Assembly: GCF_022828475.1 (NCBI RefSeq)
Contig: NZ_CP059557.1
Span: 4,139,470-4,203,469, forward strand
Direction: 5' to 3'
DNA: 64,000 nucleotides
Source: Saccharopolyspora gloriosae
GTDB taxonomy: Bacteria; Actinomycetota; Actinomycetes; Mycobacteriales; Pseudonocardiaceae
The position numbers and the translations under genes are program-made. Shown one piece after another: positions 779 to 58,172 of this stretch; the first letter of the stretch is position 1, and every line of letters begins with the position of its first letter. A model generated the notes under the pieces. The model saw only the letters and a program-made list of their open reading frames with translations. It made no database searches and was not told the origin of the DNA.

Positions 779-2173
779 CTAGCGATAGCAGTAGGAGTCG
801 GACGACGCGTCGCCACCTTGGAGTCGGACCTGGTGGGCTCGGAGTCCGCGGAACTCGTCGCCGTGCGGGAAGAAACCCGGATCGACGGTGAGACCGCCCG
901 CCGGATCGGCGTCGAGCTTGGCCATCCACGCGCCCACTCCGTCCGGGTAGAACTGGTCGTCCCAGGCGCCGTAGAGGGAGTTCGTCACGTAGACGCGGCG
1001 TCCATCGCGGCTGACCTCCACCATCTGCGGTCCGCCGGAGAGCGGTTCGCCGGGCGCCGCCGGGTGCTCGTGGCGGGCGGTAATGCCGCCGAGCCGGATC
1101 GAACCGGTTTCGCGAGGTGACGCGGGATCGGTCACGTCGAACTGCTTGAGCTCCCCCGTCCCCCAGCAGGACACGTACAGGAACCGGTCGTCGACGGACA
1201 GGTCGATGTCGGTGATCAGCGGCGGGACCGCGCCGAACGGTTTCAGCGCCGGAGGCAGCGAATCCGGGTCGGCGGGCGCGGCGGGCACCGTGATCACCTT
1301 GTCCGCCCGCCACTGCTCGCCGTCGAGGTGCCAGCGCCACACCGATGCCGAGAGGTCCTCGGTGGAGATCACCACCCCGGCGAAACCCCAGGTCGCCTCC
1401 GGGTCGTGGGCGGGGCGCAGTTCCAGCACCATCTGGTGCTGCTCGCCCAGCTCGACCCGCTGGCGGTGCGCACCGGCCGCGAGGTCCCAGAAGTGCAAGG
1501 CGTGGCCGTACTCGTGGGCCAGCAGCTTCTCCGGGACCAGTCCGTCCTCGATCAACGAGGGTGCGCCCCACTCGCTGCTGATCAGGGTGTTGCGGTTGAG
1601 GTGCCACCAGGCGTCGTAGGCGAGCCGCTGCGGGCCGCGGTCGGTCTCCCACGCGCGCAGCACGTCGAACGTGGTGTGGTCGAGCAGCGCGATCCCTCCC
1701 GGGCCGTCGGCGCCGTCGCGGCCGCCCAGGCAGGTGAGGAACACCCCGTCCGGTCCGCAGTGCAGCGTGTGCGGGCGGGAGTACCCGGCGTTCGCGGCCA
1801 GTTCCCCGGCGGTGATCGTTTTGATCAGGCTCGGGGCGCGCGGATCCGGGACGGTGTCGAGCACGTGCAGCTGCGAGGAACGCAGCCCCGGTACCAGCAG
1901 GAAGCGGCGGGCCAGACCGTCCATGTCGTGGCCCTCGTGCTTGAGCGCGCTGCTGCACGCGTTCCACCCGAAGTGGTGCAGCTCGTCACCACGGCCGGGC
2001 ATGTCGGTCCAGCCCACGATCCGGCCGTACTCGGCCGAGGACGGGTTCACGTCGAGCACGGCCATCGCGTCCGGGCGCCGCCCGGAGCGGTCGAACGCCG
2101 CTACGTAGGCCAGTTCCTCCCGTGGCGCGACGATCGCGTCGGCTGGGCTGCGGTAGAACGTCGGATCGGTCAT
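779..2173 (-). CDS. SBP56-family selenium-binding protein / methanethiol oxidase
   Basis: The 464-residue protein is full length for the SBP56 family (human SELENBP1, bacterial methanethiol oxidase MtoX), which converts methanethiol to formaldehyde, hydrogen sulfide and hydrogen peroxide using copper. Family signatures are visible: DELHHFGWNACSSALKHEGH near residues 85-105, the SRPHTLHCGPDG segment and the C-terminal propeller blades with DIDLSVDDRFLYVSCWGTGEL and QMVEVSRDGRRVYVTNSLY. No export signal is seen, unlike periplasmic MtoX, so a cytosolic role is likely. It lies 66 bases downstream of the MFS gene on the same strand and may be the last gene of the cobalamin-riboswitch operon. Participation in that operon is inferred from spacing only; a separate promoter is possible. 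Confidence 0.88.
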   Translation of the reverse strand: MTDPTFYRSPADAIVAPREELAYVAAFDRSGRRPDAMAVLDVNPSSAEYGRIVGWTDMPGRGDELHHFGWNACSSALKHEGHDMDGLARRFLLVPGLRSSQLHVLDTVPDPRAPSLIKTITAGELAANAGYSRPHTLHCGPDGVFLTCLGGRDGADGPGGIALLDHTTFDVLRAWETDRGPQRLAYDAWWHLNRNTLISSEWGAPSLIEDGLVPEKLLAHEYGHALHFWDLAAGAHRQRVELGEQHQMVLELRPAHDPEATWGFAGVVISTEDLSASVWRWHLDGEQWRADKVITVPAAPADPDSLPPALKPFGAVPPLITDIDLSVDDRFLYVSCWGTGELKQFDVTDPASPRETGSIRLGGITARHEHPAAPGEPLSGGPQMVEVSRDGRRVYVTNSLYGAWDDQFYPDGVGAWMAKLDADPAGGLTVDPGFFPHGDEFRGLRAHQVRLQGGDASSDSYCYR

Positions 2174-2239
2174 GCCGGGACCTCCCGTGGACGGCTCGTG
2201 CCCACGGCATACCCCGTCGCACGGGAGGTCGCCAGCTCG

Positions 2240-3502
2240 TCACGCGGTCGTGGCCTGCTCCTTCGCCCGGCTCAGCAGCCCGCGCCGTTCCATGAGCGCC
2301 GTTCCCGCGGCGCCCGCCAAACCGACCAGCAGCAACGCCAGCCACGGCAGCCACCGCACACCCGGCTCGGCGAACGCGTCCAGCAACGCGCCCGCCAGCC
2401 AGCTCACCCCGGCCGCCACCAGGCTCGACACCAGGTAGTAGAAGCCGTAGTAGGTGCCCGCGAGCCGTTCGCTGCCGATCTCCGGCAGCAGTTCCATCGC
2501 GAACGGGTTCGTCATGGCCTGTCCGACGGTGAACAGCACGATCGCCACCACGACCGGGACGAACGCCAGCGCCGTGCCGAGCGCGCCCGGCGCCGGGAGG
2601 CTCTCCGGCAACGCCGGGGCCGCCAGCATCAGCGGCACGAACGAGGCGCCCATGCAGCACAGGCCGAGCACGATCGACCGTCCCGAGCTCCACCTCCGGC
2701 GGCACCACTCGGTGATGCGGACCTGGCCGAACACGCCGATCACGGTGGACACCCCGAACACCACCGCGATCGACCACGCCATGCCCGACACGCGCTGCGC
2801 CTCCAGCGGCAACGTCAAGTAGAGCTGGTTGTACAGCGCGAAGTACGCCGACAACGACAGCGTGAACCCGAGGAAGCGGCGGTTGAGCACCACTTCCCGC
2901 CAGCTGCCCAGCACGCTCTGCTGCTGCGACTCGACCTCGCGGTGCGGCAGCACCAGCAGCTGCGCGACCGTGAGCACCGCGAACGCCACGCAGGCCACCA
3001 GCGCGATGATCCGGAAGTCCACCGCCAGCAGCAGCGCCCCGAGAAGCGGGCCGACCAGAGTTCCGGCGTGCTGGAAGACGTTGAACACGGCGAACACCTC
3101 GGCACGCCGCTCCCCCGCCTCGTGCATCAGGTAGGTCCGCACCGCCGGATTGAACAACGCGCCTGCCAGCCCGGTGAGGATCGCCGCCGCGAACAGGCCG
3201 GGCAGCGAGGTGAACACGGCGAACAGGCCGAACGACACCACTCGCAACGCGCACCCGGCGATGATCATCGGTCGGCAGCCGAGCCGATCCGCGGCGGTGC
3301 CGCCGAGCAGGAACATGCCCTGCTGGCTGAGGTTGCGGACACCGAGCACCAGCCCGACCACGGCGGCGCCGTAGCCGAGGTTCCCGCTCATGTACGCGGC
3401 CAAGAACGGCATCAGCATGTAGAAACCGACGTTGATGCCGAACTGGTTGATCACCAACAGCTTCGCGGCCGGGGACAACCGGGCGAACGCGGCGCGATTC
3501 AC
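2240..3502 (-). CDS. MFS transporter, riboswitch operon
   Basis: A 420-residue protein with twelve predicted hydrophobic segments, starting NRAAFARLSPAAKLLV and ending in a Lys/Glu-rich cytosolic tail. It has the MFS features of a Gly-rich first helix pair and a loop 2-3 region (LGVRNLSQQGMFLLGGTAADRLG) matching the family A motif GxLaDrxG. The GTG start at 3502 overlaps the upstream TGA as GTGA, implying translational coupling to the PLP enzyme. The topology and context suit a small-molecule exporter for the product of the two upstream enzymes, or an importer of their substrate; sequence alone does not decide this. A longer reading to 3586 is open but would overlap the upstream gene. Confidence 0.88.
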   Translation of the reverse strand: MNRAAFARLSPAAKLLVINQFGINVGFYMLMPFLAAYMSGNLGYGAAVVGLVLGVRNLSQQGMFLLGGTAADRLGCRPMIIAGCALRVVSFGLFAVFTSLPGLFAAAILTGLAGALFNPAVRTYLMHEAGERRAEVFAVFNVFQHAGTLVGPLLGALLLAVDFRIIALVACVAFAVLTVAQLLVLPHREVESQQQSVLGSWREVVLNRRFLGFTLSLSAYFALYNQLYLTLPLEAQRVSGMAWSIAVVFGVSTVIGVFGQVRITEWCRRRWSSGRSIVLGLCCMGASFVPLMLAAPALPESLPAPGALGTALAFVPVVVAIVLFTVGQAMTNPFAMELLPEIGSERLAGTYYGFYYLVSSLVAAGVSWLAGALLDAFAEPGVRWLPWLALLLVGLAGAAGTALMERRGLLSRAKEQATTA

Positions 3503-4602
3503 GAGCGCACCTCGCAGACCGGGCAGCCCGCCGAACCGGCGGTGCGATGGGCGCAGGGATCGACCACCTTGCGCGACCTCCTCCAACTCGTCTTCGTGTC
3601 CACTTCAGACGGTATTCCGTCCATTTCGAATGGTTCGGTGACCGGCTCGGGAAGACCTCGGGCGGCGTGGAATTCCGCGTCGTAGATCGTCTGCCAGTAG
3701 CGGTGCGGGCCGTCGGGGAACACGGCGGCCACCCGGTCCGAGCCCGATTCTCGGGCGCACCAGGACGCGACCAGCGCCACCGCGCCGGTGCTCCAGCCAC
3801 CGGTGACGAACGCACCCGCCGCCAACCTCCGGCAGCCCGCGACCGCCTCCGCGGCTCCTACCCAGTGCACTTCGTCGAACGCCGCGTAATCCACGTTGCC
3901 GGGATGGATGCTGCTGCCGAGGCCGCGCATCAGCCGCTTCGCCGCCGGATCGCCGAACACCGTGGATCCCGCCGCGTCGACCCCGACCAGCCGCGCGCCC
4001 GGACGCCGTTCCCGCAGCACGTGGGCGATGCCTGCGCTGTGCCCGCCGGTGCCGACGCTGCACACCACCACGTCGAGCTCGTCGAGCTGGTCGAGCAGCT
4101 CGTGGCCCAGCCCGTGATAGCCGGTGACGTTGTCGGGGTTGTTGTACTGGTCCGGCCAATACGGATCGGGCAGCGTGCCCATCAGCTCCCGCACCCGCTC
4201 CAGCCGGGCGCGCTGCCAGCCGCCCACCGGATGCGGCGAGCGCACCAGTTCCAGCCGCACCCCGTGCGCCGTGAGCAGCGCGCGGGTCATGTCGTCGAGC
4301 TCGTCATCGGCCACGACGACCACCGGATGCCCCAGCGCCGAGCCGACGCACGCCAGCCCGATCCCCAAGGTGCCGCTGGTGGATTCGACCACCGTGCCGC
4401 CGGGGCGCAGCTCGCCGCGAGCACGTGCGCCGGTGAGCATCGCGTACGCCGCTCTGGCCTTCATCCCGCCGGGGGCCACGCCCTCCAGCTTCGCCCAGAA
4501 CCCCGGGTGCGCGAAGGAGATCGGGGCGTCGACGCGCAGCAGCGGGGTGTTTCCGATCAGGTCCAGCGGCGACTCGCACCGGGCCGGTGCCCGACCCGTC
4601 AT
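3499..4602 (-). CDS. PLP-dependent cysteine-synthase/SbnA-like enzyme with Cys-His tail
   Basis: A 367-residue fold-type II PLP enzyme. It opens with SPLDLIGNTPLLRV, the usual start of cysteine synthases, and carries the Schiff-base lysine in PGGMKARAAY (about K48), the substrate loop ESTSGTLGIGLA and the phosphate-binding loop SVGTGGHSAGIA. Relatives make cysteine, or, as SbnA in staphyloferrin B synthesis, join an amino acid to a phosphoserine-derived acrylate. The replacement of the usual GSxKDR by GGMKAR and a C-terminal extension with C-A-H...C-P-V-C, a possible metal site, set it apart from housekeeping CysK. It overlaps its upstream neighbour as ATGA and its downstream MFS gene as GTGA, so the three genes form one operon under cobalamin control. 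The reaction is not known. Confidence 0.85.
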   Translation of the reverse strand: MTGRAPARCESPLDLIGNTPLLRVDAPISFAHPGFWAKLEGVAPGGMKARAAYAMLTGARARGELRPGGTVVESTSGTLGIGLACVGSALGHPVVVVADDELDDMTRALLTAHGVRLELVRSPHPVGGWQRARLERVRELMGTLPDPYWPDQYNNPDNVTGYHGLGHELLDQLDELDVVVCSVGTGGHSAGIAHVLRERRPGARLVGVDAAGSTVFGDPAAKRLMRGLGSSIHPGNVDYAAFDEVHWVGAAEAVAGCRRLAAGAFVTGGWSTGAVALVASWCARESGSDRVAAVFPDGPHRYWQTIYDAEFHAARGLPEPVTEPFEMDGIPSEVDTKTSWRRSRKVVDPCAHRTAGSAGCPVCEVRS

Positions 4603-5441
4603 CGCGGCGGCTCGTAGGTGTGGATCGTGGTCTCCTCACCGAAGAGCCAGAAGAACGGGTACGGCTCCGCCGACAGCGCCCGCACCGGGCCGCCGAGCAG
4701 TTCGCGCAGCACCGCGGCGCCGGTCTGGGCGAACATCGTCAACGGCAGCTCGCGGGCCGCGCAGGCCGCGGCGATCTCGTCGAACGTGCCGTTGCCGAGG
4801 ACCATGCCCGAAGCCAGCACGGCGTCCGCGTCCTCGATCGCCGCCGCGTGGTCCTCCAGGATCGGCTCGTCCCATTCGGTCCGGCCGCCCTTGAGGTCGC
4901 ACGGGACGTAGCTCAGGCCGCGTTCCCGCAACGCGGCGAGCAGCGAGTTCACCACGCCGATCACCGCCACCCGGCCGCCTTCGGGGACCTGGGTGATCGC
5001 GGCCACCGCGCGCGCCCGCGCCATCGATTTCGCCAGCGAATCTCCCGCCGGAACCCGCACTGGGCGGGCCAGCGGATGCGTCGCGTGCGGCGCGGTCGCG
5101 GCGAGGTAGGCGTCCAGCGCGGCCACCCGGACCGGCTGCAGCGGGTGTTCCAGCAGTTCCGCGACGCTGCGTCCGACGATGTCGCGCACCGCGTCCTCGT
5201 CGAGCGCTCCCGGCTCCACCGCGCAAGAACCGACGGCCGAACCCACCCGCACGCTGAGCACGGTGTTGACGTAGCCGGTGCCGCGACCGGTGTGGCGGGC
5301 GGCCTGCACGGTCAGGAACGCCACCGCGGCCGTGGCCTGATCCGGTTCAGGCCCTTCGGCGCCGCGGAACGCGCCGGACAGCGCGGACTCGATCAGCGAG
5401 TCCGAAAAGGAATGGTCAGTGGTGGCAGGAACAGGACGCAC
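4599..5441 (-). CDS. DUF4213/DUF364-type Rossmann-like protein, first gene of the B12-riboswitch operon
   Basis: A 280-residue protein resembling the DUF364 family ('putative heavy-metal chelation') with an N-terminal DUF4213-like half. The start is taken at the GTG at 5441, since it is preceded by a GGGGAG ribosome site six bases away; the open frame runs further up but through the riboswitch leader. The N-terminal part includes TVQAARHTGRGTGYVNTVLS and LEHPLQPVRVAALDAYLA; the C-terminal Rossmann-like part has RVAVIGVVNSLLAAL and ADAVLASGMVLGNGTFDEI, and ends with SAEPYPFFWLFGEETTIHTY. The family name is a prediction; members are structurally Rossmann-like and some sit near metal or molybdenum genes. 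Here it precedes a PLP enzyme and an MFS transporter in tight overlap, so a biosynthetic role in the same pathway is likely. Confidence 0.75.
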   Translation of the reverse strand: MRPVPATTDHSFSDSLIESALSGAFRGAEGPEPDQATAAVAFLTVQAARHTGRGTGYVNTVLSVRVGSAVGSCAVEPGALDEDAVRDIVGRSVAELLEHPLQPVRVAALDAYLAATAPHATHPLARPVRVPAGDSLAKSMARARAVAAITQVPEGGRVAVIGVVNSLLAALRERGLSYVPCDLKGGRTEWDEPILEDHAAAIEDADAVLASGMVLGNGTFDEIAAACAARELPLTMFAQTGAAVLRELLGGPVRALSAEPYPFFWLFGEETTIHTYEPPR

Positions 5442-5602
5442 GTATCTCCCCGAGCCGGACCGAAATGGAACGAACGAAAGCGGGCTAGACCCGCGGGAGA
5501 CCGTAAGAGTCCGATGTGGACGACGCGCCGTTCCGGCGCGATCCGTCGATGCGCAGCACCACGTACCTCCTCCGGGGCTCCGCGACCCCGTACGAATCGG
5601 CA

Positions 5603-5746
5603 CGACGATGCCAGTGTCCTGACTCGTGGATCAGAACCGGCTTCCGGCCTTCCCACCCGATTGGGCAGTGGCACGGATGGAAGCAGGCTCCCCACTTACA
5701 GTGGCGGGACCGCGCCGGACTCACACCGGCTTCCTGAACACCGTCG
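5603..5746 (-). promoter_or_regulatory. Cobalamin riboswitch upstream of DUF364-PLP-MFS operon
   Basis: Read on the minus strand, the region has the conserved cobalamin aptamer blocks in order: AGGAAGCCGGTGTGAGTCCG, then GCGGTCCCGCCACTGTAA, then GCCACTGCCC followed by GGGAAGGCCG, then GAGTCAGGACACTGG. The ends can pair as CGACGGTG with CATCGTCG, giving P1. The aptamer lies about 160 bases ahead of the GTG at 5441, leaving room for an expression platform. Such riboswitches normally turn genes off when adenosyl- or methylcobalamin is abundant, so the operon should be expressed when B12 is low. Confidence 0.93.
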
Positions 5747-6062
5747 CTTGACGGGTGAGAAGTTCGCAGTCCGGCTGGTGAATGTCAAGGGCGCGCAAAT
5801 CTTGATCATGGTTTCGGCGAGCCGCGGAAAGCACGTCTGCGCAGGTAGGAGAACCGGCGTGCGCACGGCTACGTGCGGAGTATGACGTCGATGACCCTTG
5901 CCGCAACACCCCTCGACGGCACTGCGCGACATCGCGGCAAGGGTCGTGCTCGGCGCTCGGGCGGAAATCGCCAAACGAGGCACCGAAGCCGGTCGGACAT
6001 TCGGCGAAAAAAGTTCCCGACAATTCTGGAGGAACCCGGCCGAAATTTCGCCGGGATGAAGA
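5747..6062. other. Intergenic region with the operon promoter; no gene seen
   Basis: About 315 bases between the riboswitch and the end of the methyltransferase gene. It must hold the promoter of the riboswitch operon and the terminator of the methyltransferase gene. Open frames here are short and do not resemble any protein. Confidence 0.5.
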
Positions 6063-7469
6063 TCAGACCGCAACCGCCCCCGTTTCTCCGCGACCGGCGG
6101 CCCGGCGACGGGCGGTCAGGAACAGGAACGTGTCCGGCCCGCTCGCGTCCACGACGTCCAGCCCGACCGCGTCGAACGCCTCGGCGATCACTTCCGGATC
6201 GAACGACCGCAGCCCGAACACCCGCTCGTGGCATCGCTGGAAGTAACGCTGGAACGCACGGGTCCCCGGACGGTACGTGCTCACCGTGAAGGTTCCGGCC
6301 GGATGCAGGCAGCGCGCCACCTCCGCGATCACCCGGTTCGGTTCCGGCAGCAGGTGCAGCGCGTCGGAGCAGTTCACGGCGCCGAGGAATCCGTCCGGGA
6401 ACGGCAACGCTCGCGCGTCGCCCTCGGTGAACAGCACGCCCGGCACCGCCGCACGCGCCACCTCCAGCAACGATCCCGCCGAGTCCAGCCCCAGCACCCG
6501 CTCCGGGCCGACCTGCTCGGCCAGCACTCTGGTCCAGCGCCCGGCTCCGCAGGCCACGTCCAGCACCGATCCCGGTGCCGGGCGCAGATTCCGCCGCAAG
6601 TAGGCGTCCTCATCCCACGCGGTGACCGCGCGGTCCCAGTTCCCGCCCGGTACCGCGGCCGACGCCGCCCGCAGCAGTTCGATGTGGTGCCCGGACGACG
6701 ACTCGTGCTCCAGCAGGCGCCGGTACGCGCCGGGCGGGGTCGGCTCGACGGGTTCCGGCGGCTCGGGCAACTCCGGCCAGCCGACGTCGCGGTGGATCTG
6801 ATGTTCGGCGCGGGCTCCCTGGTAGGCGCGCAGGGCGGCGGTCTCGGCCTCCCACAGCTCGGCGAGTTCCGCGCCCGCCCGGACCGGACCGGTGATCGAC
6901 GTGAGGCTCTCCCAGTGCGCCGGTGACGGCCAGGCGCGGCCGATTCCCGCCGCACAAGCCGGATCGGTGAAGTCAGGGGTGGCCAGGCAGCGGCGGAGCC
7001 TGGCGGCCTCGTGTTCGTCCAGGCTCCCCGGCAGCTTCGCCAAGACGCGGTCGCGCTGCTCCGGCAGCTGCATCAACAGGTGCAGCACCGAGCTGCGCAG
7101 GGACTCCTCGGTATCGGCGCGGTCGAGCAACCGCAGCTGCGCGTCCAGCCGTGCGGCGAGCACCTCCTTGATCTGGCCCGGCAGGTACGACCTGCTCGCG
7201 TCGTCCCCGAGCAGCACGCCCAGCAGCAGCGCCACCCGAGCCCGGTTGCGGTGCGGCGGACCGGTGAGGACCTCGACCGGCCCGACCAGGTCGGCCGGTC
7301 CTGCCGCAACCGGATCGAGCAGTTCGCGGGCGAGCCGGGCGAAGGCGGCGTCGGCCACCTGCGGGTCGTGGTGCACGAGCGCGGCACGCAGCCCGCCGCA
7401 GCCCGGGTCCGGTGCCGGGTCCGGCTGGGCCGTGACCCGCTGGAGGCCCTGTTGCTCCTGAGCACGCAT
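6063..7469 (-). CDS. Two-part SAM-dependent methyltransferase
   Basis: A 468-residue protein whose C-terminal half (from about residue 265) is a class I SAM methyltransferase: motif I VLDVACGAGRWTRVLAEQVG, an acidic residue after strand 2 (VLGLDSAGSLLEVAR), then FTEGDARALPFPDGFLGAVNCSDALHLLPEPNRVI and GTFTVSTYRPG. The N-terminal 200 residues are alpha-helical, rich in Leu, Arg and Asp, and unrecognised; they could be a helical-repeat partner domain. The ATG at 7469 is chosen because AAGGAG lies eight bases upstream. The gene is divergent from the acyl-carrier-like gene and geosmin synthase across 700 bases. Its substrate is not known; it is unlike the GPP C-methyltransferase of methylisoborneol pathways. 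Confidence 0.75.
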   Translation of the reverse strand: MRAQEQQGLQRVTAQPDPAPDPGCGGLRAALVHHDPQVADAAFARLARELLDPVAAGPADLVGPVEVLTGPPHRNRARVALLLGVLLGDDASRSYLPGQIKEVLAARLDAQLRLLDRADTEESLRSSVLHLLMQLPEQRDRVLAKLPGSLDEHEAARLRRCLATPDFTDPACAAGIGRAWPSPAHWESLTSITGPVRAGAELAELWEAETAALRAYQGARAEHQIHRDVGWPELPEPPEPVEPTPPGAYRRLLEHESSSGHHIELLRAASAAVPGGNWDRAVTAWDEDAYLRRNLRPAPGSVLDVACGAGRWTRVLAEQVGPERVLGLDSAGSLLEVARAAVPGVLFTEGDARALPFPDGFLGAVNCSDALHLLPEPNRVIAEVARCLHPAGTFTVSTYRPGTRAFQRYFQRCHERVFGLRSFDPEVIAEAFDAVGLDVVDASGPDTFLFLTARRRAAGRGETGAVAV

Positions 7470-8539: not shown

Positions 8540-11074
<2,535 letters not shown>

Positions 11075-55790: not shown

Positions 55791-56866
55791 GACATCCTCC
55801 CTCGTTTGGCCAGCAGCACGGCGAACGCGGGTACCCCGACGAGCGCGGTGACGACGCCGACGGGCACCTCCTGCGGCGCGGCGATGGTCGTGGCCAGCAC
55901 ATCCACCCACACCAGCAGCACCGCCCCGAGCACGGCGGTCACCGGCAGCAGCGCCCGGTGCCGCGGCCCGACGAGCAGCCGCGCGGCCTGCGGCAGCACC
56001 AGCCCGACGAACCCGATCGCACCGGCGGCGGCGACCAGCGTCGCGGCGAGCAGCGCAGTCGCCACCAGCAGCAGCGCCCGCAGCCGTCCCACGTGGACAC
56101 CGAGGGAGGCGGCCGCGTCCTGCCCGAACGCGAACGCGTCCAGCGCCCCGGCTCGCGACAGGCACAGCACCAGGCACACCGCGCACACCGTCCCGGCGAT
56201 CGCGACGTCGTTCCACCGCGCACCGGACAACGAACCCAGCAGCCAGAACAGCACCCCTCGGGTCTGCTCCGCGTCCGCCGAGGTGATCACGATGTAGGAG
56301 GTGAGCGCGGAGAACAGCTGGGTTCCCGCGACCCCGGCGAGCACGGTGTGCCCGGCCGCACCTCCCGCGACCGACGCGAGCAGCATCACCAGCGCGAACG
56401 CCACCAGCGCCCCGGCGAACGCGCCCGCGGTGAGCCCGATCGCGCCGGCACCGAGCCCGAGCACCACGACCGACACCGCGCCCGTGGAGGCTCCGGCGGA
56501 CACGCCGAGCAGGAACGGGTCGGCGAGCGGGTTGCGCAGCAACGACTGCAGCACCGCCCCGCACACTCCGAGTCCGGCGCCGCAGATCGCCGCGAGCAGC
56601 GCCCTCGGCAGCCGCAGCTGCCACACGATCCCTTGCCCGATCCGGGAAACCTCGGTGTCGAACAGCCCCAACCGGTGTCCTACGACGCCGGCGACGTCGG
56701 TGACGGTGAGTTGCGCCGGACCGAGCGTGACCGCGACCGCGATCGACAGCAGCAGCGCGGGAATCCCGGCGAGCACGATCGCGAACGCGGGCAGCCTCCC
56801 GGCAACAGGCATCCCGGCAACGGGCATCCCGGCAACGGGCGGTCCGGCGGACGGTGACGCCGTCAC
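55787..56866 (-). CDS. btuC: Cobalamin-type ABC transporter permease
   Basis: A 359-residue FecCD/BtuC permease with about ten membrane segments: VWQLRLPRALLAAICGAGLGVCGAVLQSLLRNPLADPFLLGVSAGAS is the family's hallmark, then LAAAGAIGFVGLVLPQAARLLVGPRHRALLP and the late VGVVTALVGVPAFAVLLAKR. The GTG at 56866 overlaps the binding-protein stop. Near the N-terminus three tandem GMPVAG-like units, from a 15-base direct repeat, are a small oddity. Confidence 0.88.
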   Translation of the reverse strand: MTASPSAGPPVAGMPVAGMPVAGRLPAFAIVLAGIPALLLSIAVAVTLGPAQLTVTDVAGVVGHRLGLFDTEVSRIGQGIVWQLRLPRALLAAICGAGLGVCGAVLQSLLRNPLADPFLLGVSAGASTGAVSVVVLGLGAGAIGLTAGAFAGALVAFALVMLLASVAGGAAGHTVLAGVAGTQLFSALTSYIVITSADAEQTRGVLFWLLGSLSGARWNDVAIAGTVCAVCLVLCLSRAGALDAFAFGQDAAASLGVHVGRLRALLLVATALLAATLVAAAGAIGFVGLVLPQAARLLVGPRHRALLPVTAVLGAVLLVWVDVLATTIAAPQEVPVGVVTALVGVPAFAVLLAKRGRMS

Positions 56867-57873
56867 CGCTTCCGATCCAGCTCGACGAGCCGGTCCGCGA
56901 GCCGTTCGATCCCGTGCACCGTGCGGATGCTGACGTTGAGCTCGGTGCCGGTCATCCCCATCAGGTTCCCGTCGCGCACGGCGGCGAGCCGTGACACCGC
57001 CGGATCCTCGTGCAGGAAACGGGTTTTCGCGTCGAGCCCGTCGCCTTCGCCGTCGCGGGTGAGGTCGCCGAGGACCAGCAGGTCCGGGTCGCGGGCGAGC
57101 ACGTCCTCCCAGGACACCTGCGGCCACATCGAGGACATGTCGTCGTAGGCGTTGCGCACGCCCAGCGCCCGGGTCATTACCGCCGGTGAGCCGGTGGAGC
57201 CCGCCATGTACGGGGATTCGGTGCGGGCGAACCAGAACAGCACCGAGGTGTCGGCGCGGGACTCGATGCCCGCGACCTTCTGCTGCGCCGCGGCGACCCG
57301 GCCGCGCAGCTGCTCGTTGAGCGCGTGGCCCCGGTCGGGGACGCCGAACAGGTCGGCGATCTCCTGCACCTCGCGGTAGATGTCGTCGAGCTCCACCGGC
57401 TTCGGCAGCGGCGCCTCCTCCGGGAAGCAGTTGCTCGGGGACAGGTACGTCGGCACGCCCAGCTCACCGAACCGCTCCCGGTCGGCGACTCCCTCATCGG
57501 TGAACACGGCCTGGTAGGCGCCGAGCACCATGTCCGGTTCGGTGCCCAGCACCGACTCGAACGACGGGTTGTTCTCGGCGAGCCGCGGAACGCGCGAGTT
57601 CGCCTCGGCCAGCGCCGGATCGACCGGGTCGGTCCAGGTCGCGGTGCCCACCATCCGATCCGCAAGGCCCAGCGAGAGCATGATCTCGGTCGTCGACTGG
57701 TTCAGCGACACCGCACGTTGCGGGGGTCCTTCGACGGTGACGTCGGTGTCGCAGTTGCGCACCGTCGTCCCGGTCCGGGCGGTGTTGTCGGCTGGTGCGG
57801 CGCACGAGGCCAGCACAACGGCGGTCAGCGCCACCAGCCCGACGCGTAACGCGCGGGCCTGCGAGAACGGCAT
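56863..57873 (-). CDS. btuF: Cobalamin-type ABC transporter binding lipoprotein
   Basis: A 336-residue class III binding protein. A lipoprotein signal ends in VVLASCAAPADN (lipobox LASC). The fold elements follow: RAVSLNQSTTEIMLSLGLADRMVGTATWTDP in the N-lobe, SRVPRLAENNPSFESVLGTEPDMVLGA, the long backbone helix and VSWEDVLARDPDLLVLGD in the C-lobe. The riboswitch directly upstream indicates the ligand is cobalamin or a corrinoid. Similar proteins have been annotated as F420-0 transporters; the riboswitch argues against that here. Confidence 0.85.
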   Translation of the reverse strand: MPFSQARALRVGLVALTAVVLASCAAPADNTARTGTTVRNCDTDVTVEGPPQRAVSLNQSTTEIMLSLGLADRMVGTATWTDPVDPALAEANSRVPRLAENNPSFESVLGTEPDMVLGAYQAVFTDEGVADRERFGELGVPTYLSPSNCFPEEAPLPKPVELDDIYREVQEIADLFGVPDRGHALNEQLRGRVAAAQQKVAGIESRADTSVLFWFARTESPYMAGSTGSPAVMTRALGVRNAYDDMSSMWPQVSWEDVLARDPDLLVLGDLTRDGEGDGLDAKTRFLHEDPAVSRLAAVRDGNLMGMTGTELNVSIRTVHGIERLADRLVELDRKR

Positions 57874-57948
57874 GTCACAAGGTTCCTCACCCCGAACTCA
57901 GGCGCGGAGTCCGGCAGGCTGCGACCCGGAACCGCCTGCGGTCCGGGG

Positions 57949-58111
57949 AGCCAGCCAGGTCTTCGGACTCGGGTTCAGTGAGCGAGGTTCCCTTCCCGGA
58001 TCAGCGGATCCAGTGGTTCCGGCCGTCGGCCGTCCTCGCCCATCGCCCCTACCGCTGCGCGTCAGCTCCGGATTTCGACCGGATTCCCTGCCCTCGCGGG
58101 CGCGACTGGCT
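57949..58111 (-). promoter_or_regulatory. Cobalamin riboswitch upstream of the ABC transporter
   Basis: On the minus strand, AGCCAG pairs with CTGGCT as P1, and the core reads GGGAATCCGGTCGAAATCCG, then GAGCTGACGCGCAGCGGTA, CCACTGGATCC, GGGAAGGGAACC and GAGTCCGAAGACCTGG. This is the cobalamin aptamer block order. It lies 76 bases ahead of the btuF ATG, so it probably controls ribosome access or early termination. Confidence 0.95.
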
Positions 58112-58172
58112 CACGAGCACCCTAACCGGACATACCACTACTCCATCAAGGTGATATTGCTCGCTGCGCGGT

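Follow-up and report, generated by a model that had tools for sequence, protein, structure and literature searches.

A cobalamin-riboswitch operon of Saccharopolyspora gloriosae as the probable synthesis-and-export half of a cobalt metallophore system

A 64,000-nucleotide stretch of the Saccharopolyspora gloriosae genome (the window) carries an operon in which a cobalamin riboswitch precedes genes for a DUF364 protein, a pyridoxal phosphate (PLP)-dependent enzyme resembling SbnA, and a transporter of the major facilitator superfamily (MFS). This trio probably serves synthesis and export in a cobalt metallophore (cobaltophore) system under B12 control, of which it would be one half, a reading in which the product, the metal, and the control by B12 are what we infer. 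The original prediction had proposed a cobalt-acquiring small molecule expressed when B12 is low, and a B12-repressed cobalt metallophore does give the best fit to three findings: a putative importer stands under a second cobalamin riboswitch, sister clusters stand behind Zur (zinc-type) boxes, and three families of cobalt transporters are absent from 8/8 genomes that carry the riboswitch and trio. Cobalt acquisition is supported by these findings, the metallophore step a little less so, and the exact chemistry not at all.

The anatomy of the operon agrees with what had been predicted for it. Pfam and TIGR matches bear out the identities of the three proteins, and the overlaps between their genes were verified in the sequence (ATGA between the DUF364 and PLP genes and GTGA between the PLP and MFS genes). 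The aptamer ahead of the first gene is also present: its full-length RF00174 match clears the curated gathering score of 31.5 bits and lies far beyond chance, but its 5' boundary falls at 5758, slightly upstream of the 5746 given earlier. A DUF364 start at 5603, taken from a mechanical list of open reading frames, is unlikely as it falls within the aptamer. The DUF364 protein of the window is 91% identical to the copy of a close relative, Saccharopolyspora sp. NFXS83.

It had been suggested that the trio be sought behind cobalamin riboswitches in other actinomycetes, and it was found there in eight genomes of three genera. These are all six Saccharopolyspora genomes examined plus G180 and G184, which belong to two other genera of the same family. 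The survey used short peptide patterns; it returned 11 loci and missed distant copies, and locus L023 and genome G204 were counted once. In a sample of 200 genomes of the order, 18 had a DUF364 match, and three of those had a cobalamin riboswitch at the match.

A second riboswitch would connect the trio to uptake. The source genome (G000) has eight RF00174 matches, seven of them above the cut-off, and the strongest (97.9 bits) directly precedes an SBP_bac_5 (SBP5) lipoprotein, the binding protein encoded at genome positions 4330248-4331780, and two permeases, the first assigned by Pfam and the second by similarity to the DppC-type permeases of relatives. This SBP5-DppB-DppC importer stands behind a riboswitch of its own in 6/6 Saccharopolyspora genomes. 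In G180 and G184, the riboswitch, DUF364, PLP, MFS, SBP5, DppB, DppC, and tandem ATPase genes form one operon. The remaining riboswitches of the source genome precede genes for MetE, a ribonucleotide reductase, a cobaltochelatase-type protein, and CobN, as well as two Peripla_BP_2 loci, one of which (L064, 31.4 bits) is the match below the cut-off. The riboswitch-linked CobN and cobaltochelatase-type genes indicate that the organism has B12-synthesis genes and that its riboswitches stand at the expected kinds of genes.

The trio and the importer also share a control element. Eight trio leaders and six importer leaders were compared, all from the eight trio genomes (G000, G180, G184, and G200-G204). 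A GGGG-TCGCGGA-GCCCC-like hairpin followed directly by a GAGGAGG-type Shine-Dalgarno (SD) sequence was present in 14/14 leaders. In the window, the loop of this hairpin (L13) is able to form 5 bp with aptamer loop L5 (TGTGA); a 5-bp L5-L13 pairing is possible in 13 of the 14 leaders, and the importer leader of G202 reaches 3. A kissing-loop OFF switch is known for this riboswitch class, and the predicted pairing together with the position of the SD fits a translational OFF switch. An upstream open reading frame (uORF) of 18-33 codons follows the SD in all 14 leaders, a feature that was absent from the earlier description of the window locus. The uORF peptides are alike between near relatives only, and in 6/6 importer leaders the uORF stop and the presumed lipoprotein start share the overlap GTGA. 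A weak hairpin holds the uORF stop codon of the window in its loop. Its counterparts have z-scores of +0.9 to -1.9 across the eight trio leaders (G202 +0.9, G180 -0.1) and of -0.6 to -3.0 in three importer leaders, so that the hairpin is no more than a hint. A scan of window positions 1900-6200 for Sigma-70 promoters found none. PMC11260477 describes B12 riboswitches with translated uORFs at ppe2 and metE of Mycobacterium tuberculosis that act as translational OFF switches. The likeness lies in a B12 riboswitch and a uORF ahead of a gene; the genes controlled are different, and the switches described here are predicted from sequence.

Further evidence comes from the cobalt transporters that trio genomes lack. 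The families tested were CbiM (PF01891), NicO (PF03824), and CbtA (PF09490), with CbtC-CbtX outside the test. None of the three had a match in any of the eight trio genomes, in which all candidates were scored, and at least one was present in each of eight comparison genomes chosen by the authors. The order sample contained 153 genomes with CobN, of which 142 had at least one transporter and 11 had none; six genomes with sub-cut-off NicO matches alone were counted as lacking NicO, and only the top-ranked CbtA candidates of each genome (13 at most) were scored. All three trio genomes in the sample fell among the 11 (rough hypergeometric probability 0.0003). In the family part of the sample, where all 29 genomes had CobN, transporters were missing from 3/3 trio genomes versus 1/26 of the others (G174; rough hypergeometric probability 0.001). 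Members of the other two trio genera do carry them: CbtA occurs in G027, G037, and G046 of the genus of G184, and in the genus of G180 there are CbiM and NicO (G062), NicO (G104), and CbtA (G196).

Where did the riboswitch-controlled set come from? Sixteen sister loci (L024-L034, L037-L039, L148, and L149), which hold the closest relatives of the trio, have the operon order ATP-grasp, DUF364, PLP, enolase family, MFS, methyltransferase, SBP5, and permease (Pfam was run on examples; L032 ends after the PLP gene and several others before the permease), and the operon of L034/L147 has a further permease and an ATPase. Fifteen of them have an MFS gene alongside DUF364-PLP with no riboswitch, the remaining contig ending early, and no cobalamin riboswitch was found in the 15 readable loci (L148 starts inside its first gene). 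Widespread occurrence of the trio without the riboswitch had been named in the original prediction as a sign against it, and taken literally this is what was found. However, the sister trio belongs to a larger operon that has a Zur box and encodes at least two more enzymes, so the finding supports a metal function instead. The published Zur motif of Streptomyces coelicolor (tGaNNatSatNNtCa; PMC5472717) had a site with at most two mismatches in the 200 nt ahead of the match to the first gene in 14/15 readable sister loci. Nine of these 14 sites had one mismatch, and L038 was the sole locus without a site. The background in the 196 kb of sister loci was 21 further sites, three of which overlapped a promoter site. 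Boxes resembling those of Nur, IdeR, and CsoR upstream of the sister operons did not exceed the best result from 60 shuffles.

A third, more distant group (L040-L049) combines DUF364 with a distant PALP protein, and the one example read also has FecCD, ATP-binding cassette (ABC), and Peripla_BP_2 genes and an MFS gene. A Zur-motif site lay within ~125 nt of the start of the presumed first gene in 9/10 of these loci, two of the sites overlapping the start; the choice of first gene came from a crude gene caller. The nine loci scanned whole gave no cobalamin riboswitch. The riboswitch copies form one clade in both the PLP and DUF364 trees (support 100/99 and 98/94), and their operons have no Zur boxes and no ATP-grasp, enolase-family, or methyltransferase genes. 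A Rhodococcus copy of the Zur group adjoins the riboswitch clade in the PLP tree (95/90) on a long branch, and it groups with the Zur group in the DUF364 tree. Because the other two groups have Zur-type boxes, the simplest history would be that the riboswitch replaced Zur control. Since the trio copies make up a single clade, their gains were perhaps not independent events, although the lineages represent three genera.

What would the two enzymes make? The closest solved structure to the PLP enzyme is SbnA (153 bits), an enzyme of staphyloferrin B synthesis that couples O-phosphoserine and glutamate. The window enzyme keeps the active-site Lys region of SbnA, and the Tyr within its DQYNNP motif lines up with a residue altered in one SbnA variant. 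It differs in having a Gly where another SbnA entry has a Ser; we take these SbnA positions to be wild-type Tyr152 and Ser185. It also scores below the TIGR03945 cut-off for SbnA equivalogs (249.2 versus 349.95 bits), and the trio has no SbnB-like gene. The enzyme probably works like a beta-substituting PLP enzyme. It ends in a Cys-containing tail, DPC-x9-CPVC. The DPC-x8-9-CPVC form of this tail was present in 7/8 riboswitch-type PLP enzymes (G184 is the exception) and in 0/16 Zur-type ones, and it is a possible metal site.

The DUF364 assignment passes the gathering score of PF04016 with a match that covers part of the 147-position profile. Furthermore, a profile built from the window protein and 21 relatives (22 sequences) matches the solved DUF364 protein 3npg (E 9e-6). 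The first solved member, 3l5o, combines an enolase-N-like and a Rossmann fold and has an interdomain pocket, and the 2010 structure paper drew on structure and genome context to propose that the protein takes part in making a chelator (PMC2954201). Given this proposed role and the SbnA-like chemistry, DUF364 and the PLP enzyme would form a minimal synthesis set. G184 has a single DUF364 match, so there the set has no second DUF364 cluster to draw on. The product is likely a small aminocarboxylate-type chelator.

The anatomy, the linkage, the clade structure, the Zur-box matches, and the lack of three transporter families come directly from computation. In the following model, we infer in addition the metal and its chemistry, how the chelator would leave and re-enter the cell, which way evolution ran, and that B12 turns expression off. 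At low cobalamin, the riboswitch would open the SD to ribosomes. The PLP enzyme would probably couple an activated serine to an amine in the manner of SbnA, and the DUF364 protein would probably finish a small chelator with N/O donors, which the MFS protein would export. The NikA/Opp-type ABC importer under the second cobalamin riboswitch would then recover the cobalt complex, and the recovered cobalt would feed CobN and B12 synthesis. The set would have derived from a longer Zur-controlled metallophore operon by loss of the ATP-grasp, enolase-family, and methyltransferase genes and gain of a riboswitch.

Metallophores are known for iron, zinc, copper, and nickel. In the staphylopine cnt and related opine systems, a small chelator is made by few enzymes, an MFS protein exports it, and an ABC importer of the SBP_bac_5 family takes it up; the cnt system has a wide divalent-metal range that includes cobalt. 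The system proposed here resembles cnt in these three respects and in this range. It differs in that the trio has DUF364 and an SbnA-like enzyme, with no cnt synthesis genes, and a B12 riboswitch in place of protein regulators. Synthesis genes of the cntKLM type are not in the trio, the only part of the genome examined for them, where Pfam gives DUF364, PALP, and MFS alone. Zur-regulated metallophores of actinomycetes include [S,S]-EDDS and coelibactin (PMC6103462 and PMC4993170). The sister operon is like them in its Zur boxes and metallophore-like gene set, whereas the window copy has no Zur box; the likeness drawn here is one of control and general gene type. The source genome has a Zur-boxed sister operon of its own at 1,078,000-1,102,000 (L034, L147), with similar operons in eight Streptomyces-labelled loci. 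It may itself be a zincophore cluster not yet described. A cation-diffusion-facilitator-like gene was seen by eye a few kb downstream of it.

Several observations weigh against a cobaltophore. No ATPase motifs were found in the stretches around the six Saccharopolyspora importer loci (L132-L136 and L059), while they are present in 8/8 other riboswitch importer loci searched and in the three loci (L147, L148, and L149) that show the end of the Zur-boxed operon. A riboswitch importer occurs beside known cobalt transporters, with no riboswitch trio in the genome, in four cases (G014, G069, G090, and G097), which means that it may transport other cargo. The limited scoring of CbtA in the order search means that some absences may be misses. 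In eight further CobN-positive genomes (one of them, G174, in the same family) none of the three transporters was found and no DUF364 match belonged to a riboswitch trio; absence alone therefore does not imply a cobaltophore. Among the eight trio genomes, CobN was examined in G000, G180, and G184. The transporter-absence probabilities are rough owing to relatedness, and several genomes from a single genus do not count as independent cases. The Zur boxes of the sister operons are predicted sites, that is, motif matches and not footprints, and at two mismatches the motif has eight sites in the window, none with fewer.

One alternative is that the riboswitch importer takes up cobalt, bare or bound to common chelators, or a corrinoid precursor, and that the trio makes a metabolite with no part in carrying cobalt. 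For C. tetani and D. hafniense, PMC2667541 reports importers of the NikABCDE type with predicted B12 riboswitches. These are likewise peptide/nickel-family ABC importers behind a cobalamin riboswitch, whereas here the importer goes together with genes presumed to make and export a chelator. The importer half is thus not new; the novelty lies in this combination. The four trio-less importer genomes also speak for this alternative. Their aptamers are weaker (37.9-39.5 bits) with a different platform, and their retention of other cobalt transporters fits use of a foreign chelator but also other cargo. More distantly related SBP_bac_5 importers, all of them preceded by a cobalamin riboswitch, occur in other families of the order (L078 in G122, L145 in G021, and L146 in G088) and point the same way. 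Nevertheless, the alternative is unlikely: trio and importer stand behind one riboswitch in G180 and G184, the same genes follow in succession behind a Zur box in the sister clusters, and all four trio-less importer genomes retain a known cobalt transporter.

Another explanation is a metallophore for zinc or nickel, with B12 control as metal cross-talk. The Zur boxes of the sister clusters favor it, as does the resemblance of the importer binding protein to nickel and other peptide/nickel-family binding proteins; this protein fails the NCBIfam cut-offs (Opp5A_nikA 116.9/600, nickel_nikA 73.2/393, and CntA 29.1/800). Yet no Zur-like site was found near the 14 trio and importer riboswitches (700 nt searched; ~310-350 nt upstream at the trio loci of G200-G204), and just 1/20 riboswitch loci examined over up to 700 nt, the distant importer of G021, had one. 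Trio genomes also lack the tested cobalt transporters, and a second PLP copy is present in 6/6 Saccharopolyspora genomes and Zur-boxed in the two whose upstream region was read (the source genome and G203). Another metal is accordingly a rather improbable target for the riboswitch copy. The corrinoid-sparing sulfur or amino-acid metabolism that the original prediction kept as its alternative finds support only in the cysteine-synthase-like fold of the PLP enzyme and in an SBP56/methanethiol-oxidase-like neighbor, and is very improbable because that neighbor is not conserved behind the trio, MetE and ribonucleotide reductase (recognised B12-sparing enzymes) have riboswitches of their own, and the exporter and importer fit poorly.

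Features of the operon and its flank in the window
Feature	Position	Strand	Evidence or detail
SBP56/methanethiol-oxidase-like gene, selenium-binding type	779-2173	-	PF05694 616 bits
MFS transporter, 420 aa, probable exporter	2240-3502	-	MFS_1 131 bits
SbnA-like PLP-dependent enzyme, 367 aa	3499-4602	-	PALP 179 bits; TIGR03945 249.2 bits
DUF364 protein, 280 aa, GTG start at 5441	4599-5441	-	PF04016 27.7 bits (cut-off 23)
Weak hairpin, uORF stop codon in loop	5480-5494	-	z -1.7
uORF, 25 codons, behind riboswitch SD	5485-5562	-	translation
SD GGAGGAGG, directly after platform hairpin	5566-5573	-	
Expression platform hairpin GGGG-TCGCGGA-GCCCC	5574-5589	-	within platform 5566-5589
Cobalamin riboswitch aptamer (RF00174)	5592-5758	-	cmscan 91.2 bits, E 2.7e-21, model 1-189, full length

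The SBP56 gene was considered as an operon partner and rejected, since it lies behind the trio in just 4/6 genomes of the genus; it is probably a bystander. An anti-phage role was also set aside, as the DUF364 and PLP proteins had no PADLOC match. Elsewhere in the window, a second cobalamin riboswitch (57936-58125, minus strand, 69.9 bits) lies ahead of a Peripla_BP_2 gene (56863-57873, minus strand) whose product probably serves uptake of B12, corrinoids, or related compounds. A tandem terpene synthase gene (8660-11074, plus strand) scores 1196.3 against the cut-off of 1200 of NF041168, the NCBIfam model for family 2 encapsulin cargo terpene cyclases.

In the open-licence papers searched, no metallophore dedicated to cobalt or under a B12 riboswitch was found, which does not show its absence from print, and no paper linking DUF364 with a cobalamin riboswitch was found there. 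On balance, the sequence comparisons lean toward a first dedicated cobaltophore: a secreted chelator for which two enzymes may suffice, made only at low B12, that would have arisen from a zincophore operon by exchange of Zur for a riboswitch and would have supplanted the customary cobalt transporters in actinomycetes of three genera. If this is true, DUF364 would be a chelator synthase, and a family tied to metals through genome context (PMC2954201) would gain a role that can be tested. Genomes with the importer only may use the chelator of other species. The system would also explain the cobalt supply of some B12 makers that have no CbiM, NicO, or CbtA. Finally, the Zur-boxed and riboswitch clades suggest a way in which a metal chelator pathway could be re-aimed by the swap of a control element.

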